From Shouchella clausii (lineage in GTDB: Bacteria; Bacillota; Bacilli; Bacillales; Bacillaceae_D): DNA of 64,000 bases. The stretch covers positions 4,030,001 to 4,094,000 of the forward strand of contig NZ_CP019985.1 of assembly GCF_002250115.1 (NCBI RefSeq). Direction: 5' to 3'. The position numbers were made by a program, and so were the translations under genes. The notes beneath the pieces were generated by a model. That model had not been told where the DNA came from. It worked only from the letters and a program-made list of their open reading frames with translations, and did no database searches. This document shows, piece by piece, positions 5,838 through 19,562 of this stretch (the first letter of the stretch is position 1; each line of letters starts with the position of its first letter).

Positions 5838-5843
5838 ATATCC

Positions 5844-5873
5844 TTGCCAGCCCCAGTTATTCATTGATAGAAT
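5844..5873 (+). promoter_or_regulatory. Probable SigA promoter of ispG
   Basis: TTGCCA (5844-5849), an 18-base spacer and TAGAAT (5868-5873) in the gap between yqfZ and ispG. Transcription would start near 5880 and include the short upstream ORF at 5900. Confidence 0.5.
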
Positions 5874-5899
5874 AGAACAGACTCCATAGGAGACAAAAG

Positions 5900-5932
5900 A
5901 TGGGCACAAAAGCCCCTCAAAGGAGCGATTAG
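5900..5932 (+). CDS. Ten-codon upstream ORF in the ispG leader
   Basis: ATG at 5900 is preceded by AGGAGA at 7-8 bases, a good ribosome-binding site, and opens a frame encoding [10 protein letters not shown] that stops with TAG four bases before the ispG ATG. The ispG ribosome-binding site AAAGGAG (5919-5925) lies inside this frame, 11 bases from its own start. That spacing suggests translation of ispG could be coupled to the leader peptide. The frame is short enough to be chance; conservation would decide. Confidence 0.4.
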
Positions 5933-5936
5933 GTCT

Positions 5937-7040
5937 ATGGCCGAGAGAGTTCACCGCAAAAATACGCGCCCTGTTAAGGTAGGAAACCTGACAATAGGGG
6001 GAAATGATGAAATTATTATCCAAAGCATGACGACAACAAAAACGCATGATGTCGAAGCGACTGTTGCGGAAATTAATCGATTAGAAGAAGCTGGCTGCCA
6101 GATTGTACGTGTAGCTTGTCCAGATATGCGAGCTGCAGAAGCAATCTCTGAAATAAAAAAACGCATCAATATTCCCCTTGTCGTTGATATTCATTTTAAC
6201 TACAAGTTTGCGCTTAAAGCAATTGAAGGTGGCGCTGACAAAATCCGCATCAATCCTGGCAATATCGGCAAGCGCGAGAATGTAGAAGCAGTCGTAAAGG
6301 CAGCAAAAGAAAAAGGCATTCCAATCCGCATTGGCGTCAACGCCGGCTCGTTGGAACGCCATTTGCTTGAGAAATACGGCTACCCAACTGCTGACGCGAT
6401 GGTCGAAAGTGCATTGCACCATATCCGTATTTTAGAAGAACTCGATTTTTACGATATTATCGTATCGATGAAAGCCTCGGATGTGCGTTTAGCGATCGAA
6501 GCTTATGACAAAGCGAGCAAAGCATTCGACTACCCGCTCCATCTGGGCATTACTGAATCAGGCACGCTTTTTGCCGGGACGGTAAAAAGTGCAGCAGGAA
6601 TTGGCGCCCTTCTGCATATAGGTATTGGCAATACATTGCGGATATCGCTGTCTGCTGATCCGGTTGAAGAAGTAAAAGTGGCACGGGAACTATTGAAATC
6701 GTTTGGCCTTGCCGCTAATGCAGCAACACTCATCTCCTGCCCAACGTGCGGGCGGATAGAGATTGATTTGATTAGCATCGCCAACGAAGTGGAAGAATAC
6801 ATTGCAAAAATTAAAGCACCGATAAAAGTCGCTGTTCTCGGTTGCGCCGTAAATGGCCCAGGCGAAGCCCGAGAAGCAGATATCGGTATTGCCGGAGCAC
6901 GGGGCGAAGGACTTTTGTTCATGAAAGGCGAGATTGTCCGTAAAGTCCCAGAAGAAACAATGGTGGAAGAGCTAAAGAAAGAAATCGATAAACTTGCAGA
7001 AGAGCATTATGCAAAACAACGCGAAGCTCAGCCGAACTAA
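5937..7040 (+). CDS. ispG: (E)-4-hydroxy-3-methylbut-2-enyl-diphosphate synthase (flavodoxin), MEP pathway
   Basis: IspG (GcpE) converts 2-C-methyl-D-erythritol 2,4-cyclodiphosphate to HMBPP in the cytoplasm with a [4Fe-4S] cluster. The 367-residue protein matches the Bacillus form almost throughout: [40 protein letters not shown], and the cluster ligands in SCPTCGR (near residue 265) and [21 protein letters not shown] (near residue 300). The length is normal. The next enzyme, IspH, is encoded at 17447, so this window holds both iron-sulfur enzymes that end the pathway. The ribosome-binding site is 11 bases from the ATG and sits in an upstream ORF. Confidence 0.97.
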
Positions 7041-16055: not shown

Positions 16056-16703
16056 ATGCACTCTTTTTTAGGCCCTCCTGCAAGTTCCCTTCCGATGCAA
16101 CCGTTCCCAGCGACTCCCAATCCCTTTTTTGGTCCTAGCTCAATAATGGGGCCAGGCATGGCGCCAAGATTGGTCCAATCTGCCGCACGGCCTCTGGCGA
16201 CCATTCCTGGGCAGGTGGCGCCTTCCTTTGCGACACAAAGGGTCGGAGGCGGTTTATTATCACGCTTGTTTGGCAGCGCCGCCTCTCGTGTTGGCACCGG
16301 CGGCTTTTCAGCTGGCAGCAGGTTGTTCGGTAGTGGCATGAACTTAACAACGATCCTGAATAATACGCAACGCGTGCTAGGCATCACTCAACAAGTGGCA
16401 CCGATGATCCAACAGTACGGGCCGCTAATTAAAAATGCGCCGACGCTTTGGCGGATTTTGCGCTCTTCTCCTCAGACGGCAGGTGAAGATACAACAGGCC
16501 CGGAAGACACAATAGAACCAGAAACGGATTCGACTGGCATTGAGGAAACAGCAGAACTAAAAAGCGCTTCTGCTGACAGTGAGGAAACAGAACGACAAGT
16601 GGGCGAGAAAACGCAAGCCAAACCTTCAGATACAGCAGTTATTGTCAGAAAAAGAAAGAAACCTGCTGGAGATGAACTTCCAAAGCCTAAACTTTATGTG
16701 TAA
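16056..16703 (+). CDS. yqfQ: YqfQ/VrrA-like protein
   Basis: The 215-residue product has three parts. The Pro/Gly-rich N-terminus (PMQPFPATPNPFFGPSSIMG) and glycine/serine-rich middle (GGGLLSRLFGSAASRVGTGG) lead to a short helical segment ILNNTQRVLGITQQVAPMIQQYGPLIKNAP typical of the YqfQ-like family. An acidic Glu/Thr-rich linker and a basic end follow. B. anthracis VrrA is the known variable-repeat member; this copy shows no perfect tandem repeat. A role in the spore envelope has been proposed for the family. It is divergent from cshB and upstream of the CarD-like gene. Confidence 0.7.
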   Translation: MHSFLGPPASSLPMQPFPATPNPFFGPSSIMGPGMAPRLVQSAARPLATIPGQVAPSFATQRVGGGLLSRLFGSAASRVGTGGFSAGSRLFGSGMNLTTILNNTQRVLGITQQVAPMIQQYGPLIKNAPTLWRILRSSPQTAGEDTTGPEDTIEPETDSTGIEETAELKSASADSEETERQVGEKTQAKPSDTAVIVRKRKKPAGDELPKPKLYV

Positions 16704-16720
16704 AAATTTCGTTTTGGTTA

Positions 16721-16750
16721 TTGACAAGTTTCTGCCCTCAGTAGTATAAT
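16721..16750 (+). promoter_or_regulatory. SigA promoter of the CarD-like gene
   Basis: TTGACA (16721-16726), an 18-base spacer and TATAAT (16745-16750), both hexamers perfect. The predicted start is near 16757, giving a leader of about 53 bases. Confidence 0.8.
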
Positions 16751-16809
16751 TTGAAATTTATCTTTAAATGTGGTATACTAACTTCTATCACTTGATTGGA
16801 GGAATGTCC

Positions 16810-17301
16810 ATGTTTAAAGTTGGCGACAAAGTTGTTTACCCCTACCATGGTGCAGGGACGATCCAAGAGGTGGAGGAGAAAAATGTATTGGGTGAGACGC
16901 ATTTGTATTTCATCCTTCATTTCCCATTGGTAGATATAACGCTTATGCTTCCAGAGTCTCGAATCGAGCAATCAGGGCTCCGAAAGGTCATTCCCTCCTC
17001 TGATATTGAAAAGGTCGCAAAAGCATTGCAAAACGGGCCTGATACGCCGCCTTCAACGAGTCAATTTTCTCGAGATACGGAAAATTTATTAAAGACAGGC
17101 AGCATTATCGACGCTGCTCATTTAGTGTCGTCACTCTCGAAAAAACAGGCAGAACGGTCAAACGGACTCCATATCCAAGATCGCCATCATTTGCAAAAAG
17201 CACGGCAAGTGTTAGCCAGCGAACTTGTAGCTGTCCAAGATTTTTCAGAAGAACAGGCCTATGAATTTATTGACAACAATTTGCTCGATACAGCCAATTA
17301 A
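16810..17301 (+). CDS. CarD/CdnL-family transcription regulator
   Basis: The 163-residue product has an N-terminal Tudor-like RNA-polymerase-interaction domain (MFKVGDKVVYPYHGAGTIQEVEEKNVLG, then LHFPLVDITLMLPESRIEQSGLRKVI) and a helical C-terminal part (residues 85-160). CarD proteins bind the RNA polymerase beta subunit and tune open-complex formation, often at rRNA and stress promoters. The start at 16810 is chosen because GGAGG lies 7-8 bases before it; a longer frame from 16768 has no site. It has a perfect-hexamer promoter and sits between yqfQ and ispH. The family call is good; the target genes are unknown. Confidence 0.82.
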   Translation: MFKVGDKVVYPYHGAGTIQEVEEKNVLGETHLYFILHFPLVDITLMLPESRIEQSGLRKVIPSSDIEKVAKALQNGPDTPPSTSQFSRDTENLLKTGSIIDAAHLVSSLSKKQAERSNGLHIQDRHHLQKARQVLASELVAVQDFSEEQAYEFIDNNLLDTAN

Positions 17302-17337
17302 GCCATTATTGTTCTATGAAATCATAAGGCTTCCTGA

Positions 17338-17366
17338 TTGTCAGGCTCCTTGATCTCCATTACAAT
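17338..17366 (+). promoter_or_regulatory. Probable SigA promoter of ispH
   Basis: TTGTCA (17338-17343), a 17-base spacer and TACAAT (17361-17366). The predicted start is near 17373, only about ten bases ahead of a terminator-like hairpin. Confidence 0.6.
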
Positions 17367-17382
17367 AGAAGAGAAATCATCA

Positions 17383-17428
17383 AAACAGGGCTCTCACTTT
17401 TTCGGAAAGTAAGTAGCCCCGTTTTTTT
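17383..17428 (+). terminator. Terminator-like hairpin in the ispH leader
   Basis: CAGGGCT pairs with AGCCCCG and, inside it, CACTTT pairs with AAAGT around a TTCGG loop, with one mismatch and one bulge. A run of seven T follows. It has every mark of an intrinsic terminator, yet it ends one base before the ispH ribosome-binding site AGGAGG (17429-17434). It may end readthrough from the CarD-like gene, or act as an attenuator for ispH. Confidence 0.7.
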
Positions 17429-17446
17429 AGGAGGCCACTAAATCAA

Positions 17447-18391
17447 ATGGACGTTTTAAAAATTTCGCCAAGAGGGTACTGTTACGGCGTAGTGGATGCA
17501 ATGGTGATGGCGAGACAAGCGGCGCAAAACTTGGACTTACCAAGACCTTTATATATACTGGGGCAAATTGTTCATAACCAACATGTGACGGACGCGTTTA
17601 AAGAGGATGGCATTATTTCATTAGACGGACCAAACCGCCTTGAAATTTTAAAAAACGTCACTCATGGAACAGTCATTTTTACAGCGCACGGTGTATCGCC
17701 TGAAGTTCGCCGTCTCGCTAAAGAAAAAGGACTGACTTGCATTGATGCGACATGCCCAGACGTGACTCGAACACATGATTTAATACGGGAAAAAGCAGAA
17801 GAAGGCTATCAGTTTATTTACATCGGCAAACAAGGTCACCCTGAGCCAGAGGGGGCCATGGGTGTCGCTCCTGACTCTGTGCACCTTGTCGAGACATTGG
17901 AAGACCTTGAGCAGCTTACATTGGATGACCGCGACATTATTATTACCAACCAAACGACGATGAGCCAATGGGATGTAGCCGATATTATGAAGCGCGCTAT
18001 GGAGCTCTATCCAAACGCAGAAGTACACAATGAAATTTGTTTAGCAACGCAAGTCCGCCAAGAGGCGGTTGCTGAACAAGCTTCTCAATGTGACATCGTG
18101 ATTGTTGTCGGCGATCCAAAAAGCAACAATTCCAACCGATTGGCACAAGTTTCCGAGCAAATTGCCGGTACACCCGCTTACCGTATTGGCGATTTGTCCG
18201 AACTGAAGCTAGAGTGGATCAAAGACGCCAAAAAAGTCGGCGTAACGTCAGGCGCGTCAACGCCGACGCCGATTACAAAAGAAGTGATAACCTTTATCGA
18301 GAACTATGACCCAAATGATGAATCAACATGGGATACGACGAAAAAAGTGCCGATCGAAAAAATTCTTCCAAAAGTGCGTGTAAAAAAATAA
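17447..18391 (+). CDS. ispH: 4-hydroxy-3-methylbut-2-enyl diphosphate reductase, MEP pathway
   Basis: IspH (LytB) reduces HMBPP to IPP and DMAPP in the cytoplasm with a [4Fe-4S] cluster. The 314-residue protein shows the first cluster cysteine in [14 protein letters not shown], the second in [12 protein letters not shown] and the third in [14 protein letters not shown]. It also has the [21 protein letters not shown] and [12 protein letters not shown] motifs. The length is normal for Bacillus. AGGAGG precedes the ATG at good spacing. It shares the pathway with ispG at 5937. A promoter and a terminator-like hairpin lie in the leader. Confidence 0.97.
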
Positions 18392-18440: not shown

Positions 18441-19562
18441 TCATAAAAATTGAAATGGCTCTGTGCTTTGGGCAGAAGCGAATATATCTATATGGTAGCC
18501 GTTTTCGTTCAATAATGCTGCCATTTTCTCAGCAACGCCTTCTTTCATAATCGCCTCGATATGATGGCCCGCATCAATGACACACATCCCTGCCATTAAT
18601 GCATCTTGAGCAACATGGTAATACAAATCTCCAGTGATAAGCACATCTGCCCCAGCTCGTTTGGCTTGCATCACATACTTATTGCCATCGCCTCCGAGCA
18701 CAGCTGCTTTTCTGATTTTCGTATCCAACTCACCGACAACACGAACTGTTTTTACACCTAGCGCCTGTTTAACAAATTCAACATATGAGGCTAGCGTATG
18801 GTCGCCCTCAACTTTCCCGATACGACCGAGTCCTCGTTGCCATTGCGGTTGATCAAGTGGATACAAGTCGTAGGCAGGCTCCTCATACGGATGCGCCTTA
18901 ACCAACGCTGCAATGACTTTGCCGCTCATATTGGCAGGCACAATTGTTTCAATGCGTACTTCGCCTACTTCTTCTTCTTTCCCTACCGTGCCAATATAAG
19001 GGTTGGTTCCTGCTTGTGGACGAAAACGCCCCATTCCCTCCGCCGAAAAGGAGCAGTGGCTATAGTTGCCAATGTGACCAGCACCAGCAGCGCCAAGGGA
19101 CTCACGGATTTGTTTCGCATGGGAAGCCGGAACGAAAGCAACGAGCTTTTGCAATGTTTCTGTATAGGTCGGCGCCAGCACATTGCTATCTTTGAATTGA
19201 AGGCGCTCTGCAAGCAAATCATTAACGCCCCCTTCGGCAACATCAAGATTCGTATGGGCAGCATAAATGGTAATCTCATGTTCAATTGCTTTTTTTATCA
19301 TTCTCCCCATCGGCGTGTCTACATCGATTTGCTTAAGAGGATGGAACAACAACGGGTGGTGGGCCAGGATAAAGTCAACGTCCTTTTCAATCGCTTCATC
19401 GATCGTTTTTTCCAGTACATCAAGGGCAACCATTGCTTTTTTGACCTTTTTTTTCAGTGACCCAACCATTAAACCGTTTTTATCACCTTCAAGTGCATAT
19501 GACTTTGGGGCAAAAGACTCAAAGTATTGGATAAGCGTATTTGCTGCAACGGCGTTTTTCAT
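18441..19562 (-). CDS. yqfO: Nif3-like dinuclear metal-centre protein (YqfO)
   Basis: The 373-residue protein has the Nif3/DUF34 domain at both ends: FILAHHPLLFHPLKQI with metal-binding histidines (near residue 65), YAAHTNLDVAEGGVND, and VLITGDLYYHVAQDALMAGMCVIDAGHHIE near the C-terminus. An inserted PII/CutA-like middle domain (about residues 130-240) marks the long Gram-positive type. Nif3 proteins bind two metal ions; a GTP cyclohydrolase I type 2 annotation is common, but the true activity is uncertain. It overlaps trmK by 4 bases (ATGA), so the two are translationally coupled. Confidence 0.9.
   Translation of the reverse strand: MKNAVAANTLIQYFESFAPKSYALEGDKNGLMVGSLKKKVKKAMVALDVLEKTIDEAIEKDVDFILAHHPLLFHPLKQIDVDTPMGRMIKKAIEHEITIYAAHTNLDVAEGGVNDLLAERLQFKDSNVLAPTYTETLQKLVAFVPASHAKQIRESLGAAGAGHIGNYSHCSFSAEGMGRFRPQAGTNPYIGTVGKEEEVGEVRIETIVPANMSGKVIAALVKAHPYEEPAYDLYPLDQPQWQRGLGRIGKVEGDHTLASYVEFVKQALGVKTVRVVGELDTKIRKAAVLGGDGNKYVMQAKRAGADVLITGDLYYHVAQDALMAGMCVIDAGHHIEAIMKEGVAEKMAALLNENGYHIDIFASAQSTEPFQFL

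Follow-up and report, generated by a model that had tools for sequence, protein, structure and literature searches.

In Bacillus subtilis, pyrG attenuation uses a promoter followed within tens of nt by a terminator, a distance too short for an upstream sensor domain, and requires a run of G where transcription starts. Similar to pyrG, the ispH gene in the Shouchella clausii DNA analyzed here (a stretch of 64,000 nt, hereafter the window) places a terminator-like element tens of nt past its promoter; it differs in that its inferred start region reads GAAATC. The rimP-leader type also resembles ispH, as it consists of a lone terminator hairpin near or overlapping the Shine-Dalgarno (SD) sequence with no visible antiterminator; it was found across many species by synteny, and NusA was proposed as the factor there (available text of PMC2965389). 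However, it precedes another gene, and its GGGc..gCCC stem, although present in the window, was seen in just 4 of the 10 Shouchella leaders aligned (L001, L002, L004, and L012), so that a conserved stem of this type is not a feature of the Shouchella ispH leaders. The NusA/NusG-dependent terminators of B. subtilis have terminal A-U stem pairs and a T-rich tract as their common feature (PMC8060035, in excerpt), and such dependence is only predicted for ispH. Stabilizing 5′ stem-loops of the aprE type likewise have a hairpin no more than ~10 nt from the 5′ end, with an SD after it (PMC3997798, in excerpt). The stabilizer role of these stem-loops needs no conserved T-run, whereas one is present in Shouchella.

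The MEP isoprenoid pathway ends with IspH. The enzyme has been called a rate-limiting step for isoprenoid flux (PMC9745026, in excerpt), and a leader terminator matters here as it would sit before a reportedly essential and rate-limiting isoprenoid gene (PMC1914294 and PMC9745026, both in excerpt). No report was found among the matches listed for an ispH leader terminator, premature termination, attenuation, a riboswitch, or yqfP, and an entry in a table of 3′-ends is quite possible. Neither ispH nor yqfP is named in the main texts of PMC2965389, PMC3574147, PMC12350095, PMC8208703, PMC8060035, PMC12207403, and PMC12288461, and lytB is likewise unnamed in the main text of PMC2965389. As read from sequence, the element is of a known kind, a real and recurrent ispH leader terminator, at a gene for which none was reported in the literature searched.

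Architecture of the ispH leader in the window

The window groups with Shouchella clausii, its IspH being 99% identical to those of S. clausii, S. tritolerans, and S. rhizosphaerae. The arrangement read from the sequence is listed in Table 1, and it places promoter, hairpin, T run, and SD where the first-pass annotation had put them, that is, TTGTCA-N17-TACAAT, a hairpin ~9 nt past the inferred start, and a T7 run abutting the SD.

Table 1. Features of the ispH locus, in window coordinates.
Feature	Position	Strand	Remarks
CarD-like gene promoter, TTGACA-N18-TATAAT	16721–16750	+	12/12 consensus matches
CarD-like gene (PF02559 + PF21095)	16810–17301	+	co-directional, upstream neighbor of ispH
ispH promoter, TTGTCA-N17-TACAAT	17338–17366	+	−35 at 17338–17343, −10 at 17361–17366; kept in relatives
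ispH +1 (inferred)	17373	+	from usual distance to −10
Leader hairpin, terminal A-U pairs and GGGCT/AGCCC core	17382–17425	+	folding, scan, Shouchella covariation
T7 run of terminator-like element	17422–17428	+	predicted end of ~55 nt leader RNA
SD, AGGAGG	17429–17434	+	sequence; directly abuts T run
ispH (LytB; PF02401; NCBIfam NF002187, TIGR00216)	17447–18391	+	domain and family matches; start codon ATG

The CarD-like protein, which combines PF02559 with the CarD C-terminal domain PF21095, is encoded between yqfQ and ispH, and by eye the end of the same CarD-like gene was seen to precede ispH in many family relatives. In the window, 36 nt separate its stop codon from the ispH −35 box. The ispH promoter matches the consensus at 10 of 12 positions with a spacer of 17. 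Promoter-like sites alone are uninformative (7 in 16500–18000 vs. 2.6 expected), and the promoter is credible because it is conserved in relatives, not because of its consensus match alone.

The hairpin, AAAAC(A)GGGCT...AGCCC(C)GTTTT, accounts for −14.5 kcal/mol in our own terminator scan. The leader at 17373–17446 was folded at −18.9 kcal/mol, vs. −11.3 ± 2.4 for shuffled sequences (z −3.2), and none of 200 shuffles folded as well. A simple terminator scan did not list the hairpin, presumably because of the stem mismatches, while our own did. A stable GC-rich stem on the transcribed strand with a T-rich tract directly after it, as in an intrinsic terminator, thus follows the promoter of ispH and precedes its start codon, as in a leader terminator. 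The 18 nt from the T run to the ATG are too few for another promoter, in agreement with the first-pass annotation, which had seen none between hairpin and gene.

Across the whole window, a terminator-like hairpin lies ≤60 nt upstream of 4 of the 52 gene starts with a good SD, and only at ispH is it preceded by a good promoter. No second copy of the leader was found in the genome. A terminator on the minus strand was rejected: that strand folds even better, but has no more than four T, and the closest gene found on it ends at 18441, ~1 kb away.

Conservation of stem and tail within Shouchella

Terminator matches were called at ΔG ≤ −6 and at least five T in seven; at a stricter ΔG ≤ −8, 92 of 103 matches remained. 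The scan found promoter, hairpin, and T-rich tail in all 11 distinct Shouchella leaders, which represent 13 genomes. In the ten leaders whose stems could be aligned, pairs 2 and 4 are invariant, while pair 1 is GC in six, AT in one, and CT, a mismatch, in three; pair 3 is GC in eight, GT in one, and AT in one; and pair 5 is TA in seven, TG in two, and GC in one. The tail after the core arm holds 6–8 T in 10 nt in all ten. The eleventh leader, that of S. lonarensis, carries an unrelated hairpin in the same place. These alignments point to selection on the Shouchella stem and tail, though few independent changes stand behind the covariation.

Folding without the tail bears on another role of the hairpin, namely, a 5′ stem-loop that would protect the ispH mRNA from 5′ decay or tune its translation, with the Shouchella T-run being secondary. 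After removal of the last 10 nt, 9 of the 11 Shouchella leaders still had z below −2, the exceptions being the window leader (−1.9) and L012 (−0.8). Among the 22 leaders from other genera of the same family, 19 had z below −2, and so did 12 of the 14 without a called terminator, vs. just 8 of the 70 leaders from the remainder of the order in which no terminator was called; this fold test took in the 143 of 187 leaders of sufficient length. Thus, a hairpin lacking a T-run is often kept in the Shouchella family, which makes a role in mRNA stability or translation a live rival. The hairpin also begins ~9 nt from the inferred 5′-end, and B. subtilis mRNAs are stabilized by hairpins near the 5′-end (PMC3997798, in excerpt). 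However, the T-run is retained in all ten aligned Shouchella leaders despite diverged stem and loop, and accompanies the hairpin in many other lineages, while a stabilizer needs none. A purely stabilizing or translational role is hence considered unlikely.

Recurrence across Bacillales and in the Bacillus subtilis genus

IspH matches came from all 60 relatives and, at the level of the order, from 388 of 397 genomes. From 218 loci, 188 distinct ispH leaders were obtained and 187 were scored, using the best hexamer pair within 400 nt as promoter; no pair was accepted for L052, which was excluded. The counts retain a few rows with a doubtful promoter pair (e.g., L038 and L058), as well as 4 of the 218 loci that start inside the gene by about a codon.

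A terminator-like hairpin between −10 box and ATG was found in 59 of the 187 distinct leaders, vs. 6.4 expected from ten shuffles each, and was lacking in 128. The clades with the element are Shouchella, a sister group, Fictibacillus, Sutcliffiella, Metabacillus, and Aeribacillus with relatives, and their stems differ, none being common to these lineages. On an IspH tree of 103 whole-gene rows, 45 of them with the element, at least 11 state changes were required, compared with a mean of 34 under shuffled labels (500 shuffles, minimum 25); this is a quick tree, with 30 of 100 inner branches open.

With promoter cut-off and scan unchanged, ispH was then compared with other gene starts in the best 80 of 136 named loci. 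The arrangement occurred at 35 of 65 ispH starts vs. 1 of 67 other starts, and at 0 of 27 other starts in tandem pairs; the other starts, unlike those of ispH, were admitted only with a good SD and an intergenic stretch of 60 nt or more. Fisher p-values of 7e-13 and 1e-7, respectively, are only indicative, the sequences being related. Short hairpins with T-runs do arise by chance, at the rate given by the shuffles, and a functionless hairpin at ispH was considered accordingly, but it is contradicted by the genus-wide retention with compensatory changes and by the enrichment over both shuffles and other genes, and is therefore highly improbable.

Further leaders, mostly one per newly sampled genus, showed the element in 8 of 60. 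Three of these eight come from one genus, whose member G171 has a SigA nearly identical to chain 7ckq_F; we take this chain to be B. subtilis SigA, and the genus is treated here as the B. subtilis genus. All 39 distinct leaders of this genus (44 genomes) carry the element with a stem unlike that of Shouchella, and an AGCCG/CGGCT core is invariant in the 24 that were aligned. In G444, whose SigA is identical to 7ckq_F, the ispH leader contains GAGCCGTTTGATTACGGCTTTTTATATT. This genome has 4 matches to the pattern AGCCG..CGGCTTTTT vs. 3 to the reversed control, and the pattern is thus not specific as a motif. Of the 283 distinct leaders scored in all fetched data, 103 have the element, the B. 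subtilis genus being over-represented.

A promoter-then-terminator layout thus probably recurs, with different sequences, in many relatives including B. subtilis. The first-pass annotation had suggested a search of related leaders for a conserved hairpin and an antiterminator, and would have abandoned its reading had the hairpin lacked conservation; the hairpin is conserved within Shouchella and, with another stem, in Bacillus, and no antiterminator was seen.

The ispH promoter across the order

The −10 box is TATAAT in 161 of the 187 leaders. At the −35 box, the fourth position is T in 147 of 187 (TTGTCA, TTGTAT, TTGTAA, etc., in a TTTGTA/TTTGTC context), off the TTGACA consensus, although the scorer is biased toward TTGT and yields T in 93 of 187 shuffled upstream sequences. 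Conservation of this T is thus suggestive, not proof, and it could possibly reflect a conserved weak −35 box or an operator. The predicted ispH promoter itself is conserved across the order and would hence be old. With this promoter present order-wide, and leader terminators exceeding both shuffles and other genes, the data support the earlier proposal that a terminator-like hairpin has to be passed in making ispH mRNA.

A similar promoter was observed at ispG, where all six genomes checked have TTGTCA or TTGCCA with an 18-nt spacer (window ~5840–5940; L327–L332).

Relation of the leader hairpin to the upstream gene

The hairpin might in essence be the 3′ terminator of the upstream gene, the CarD-like gene here and YqfQ in many others, that ispH tolerates without regulation; with the ispH promoter lying just behind the stop codon, such a terminator could only sit after the promoter. 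Terminators were counted in the leader and before the promoter: 53 leaders have one in the leader only, 3 in both places, 25 before the promoter only, and 86 in neither, while the remaining 20 of the 187, of which 3 carry the element, lack an upstream stop in reach. Among the 56 leaders with both the element and a stop in reach, 53 have no other terminator between that stop and the promoter, and the gap from stop to −35 box is 2–36 nt in 49 of the 53 leader-only cases. The two terminator positions exclude each other with a Fisher p of 0.004, on sequences that are not independent. This rarity of coexistence fits a hairpin that mainly ends the upstream gene, and makes this explanation a strong rival.

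However, the upstream gene does not need a terminator, as the 86 of 187 leaders with neither one show, and both terminators occur together in the three leaders found by script (L028, L086, and L175) as well as in L184 by eye. Moreover, the hairpin lies after the ispH start and must act on ispH transcripts too. A terminator serving only the upstream gene is thus regarded as rather unlikely. The two alternatives of the first-pass annotation, a leaky terminator of the CarD-like transcript or attenuation of ispH, both stay alive, and one hairpin could serve both. Most likely, upstream-gene termination and ispH leader termination are combined in one hairpin.

Proposed leaky termination ahead of ispH

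We give a slight preference to the reading that the hairpin is a real, selected, and leaky intrinsic terminator in the ispH 5′ leader, met by polymerases from both the carD and the ispH promoters. Its anatomy, its conservation, and its enrichment at ispH are the observations described above, while actual termination, leakiness, and Nus dependence are what we infer from them. Because the hairpin follows the ispH promoter and precedes the SD, polymerases from the CarD-like gene and from the ispH promoter would both reach it; a fraction would halt at ~17428 and free a short leader RNA, and ispH would be expressed from the read-through transcripts. Since ispH was reported to be essential in B. subtilis (PMC1914294, in excerpt), read-through must suffice. 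Consistent with leakiness, the leader terminators are slightly weaker than those before the promoter, with medians of −10.0 kcal/mol (n = 59) vs. −11.7 kcal/mol (n = 36).

NusG together with NusA aids terminators with terminal A-U/G-U stem pairs (PMC8060035, in excerpt). The ispH stem terminates in four A-U pairs and its tail is a T run, so that dependence on NusA and/or NusG would be expected, as for such terminators in B. subtilis. Termination efficiency could also depend on the age of the complex, young when it comes from the ispH promoter and mature when it comes from carD; as a pure inference, read-through might be more frequent for young complexes, only a few tens of nt past the promoter, than for mature ones. 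By this leaky terminator, ispH may be throttled through early stopping of its own transcript.

Regulation through the leader terminator would be a further step. It would mean that ispH in many Bacillales, B. subtilis included, is under regulated attenuation at a promoter-proximal terminator whose layout persists while its sequence differs, with a factor acting on early elongation complexes (e.g., NusA/NusG availability or an RNA-binding protein). We put this forward tentatively, as a somewhat unlikely extension; if it were true, the ispH leader would be a short regulatory RNA.

Candidate signals and other structures in ispH leaders

As the hairpin begins ~9 nt past the inferred start, there is no room for an RNA sensor or a leader peptide, the latter being rejected on this ground, and any control would have to run via a protein or elongation factors. 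Minimum-energy folds of the leader showed no competing pairing that could serve as an alternative antiterminator. Rfam gave no match at gathering score in the window or in 14 relative loci; two matches in the leader, at E 4.6 and 6.2, were far below gathering, and no match at E ≤ 1 was obtained for six loci from Bacillus and allied genera.

ispG encodes the other late enzyme of the pathway, which is also a [4Fe-4S] protein. In none of six genomes did its leader contain a terminator-like hairpin, so that a shared iron-sulfur or isoprenoid signal, which the first-pass annotation had offered as a possible input, found no support here, nor in the antiterminator and Rfam searches.

In the fold of a carD read-through transcript, the SD was sequestered by sequence upstream of the −35 box; this possibility was rejected, as by eye the pairing occurs only in the closest relatives.

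Longer ispH leaders of ~90–140 nt were observed in Metabacillus and relatives, and their 5′-end can pair with the SD-adjacent stretch. These leaders enclose one, in some cases two, terminator-like hairpins (L077, L078, L079, L082, L088, L095, L100, L108, L111, L115, and L139). The pairing is of TTAAGAGAT with ATCTCTTAA, around a GCCG..CGGC terminator, and can form only after read-through. Across the 11 aligned leaders, out of 14, it shows little or no variation, and therefore has no covariation support. The Metabacillus-type ispH leader may be a structured leader RNA.

In sister genera (L013–L016, L026, and L037), the ispH leaders share hairpins resembling CCTGTTC..GAACAGG, with a stretch similar to CTCTCATTTTAGGAGG after them, and some of these leaders have a copy of CCTGTC behind the SD as a further potential pairing partner of the 3′ arm.
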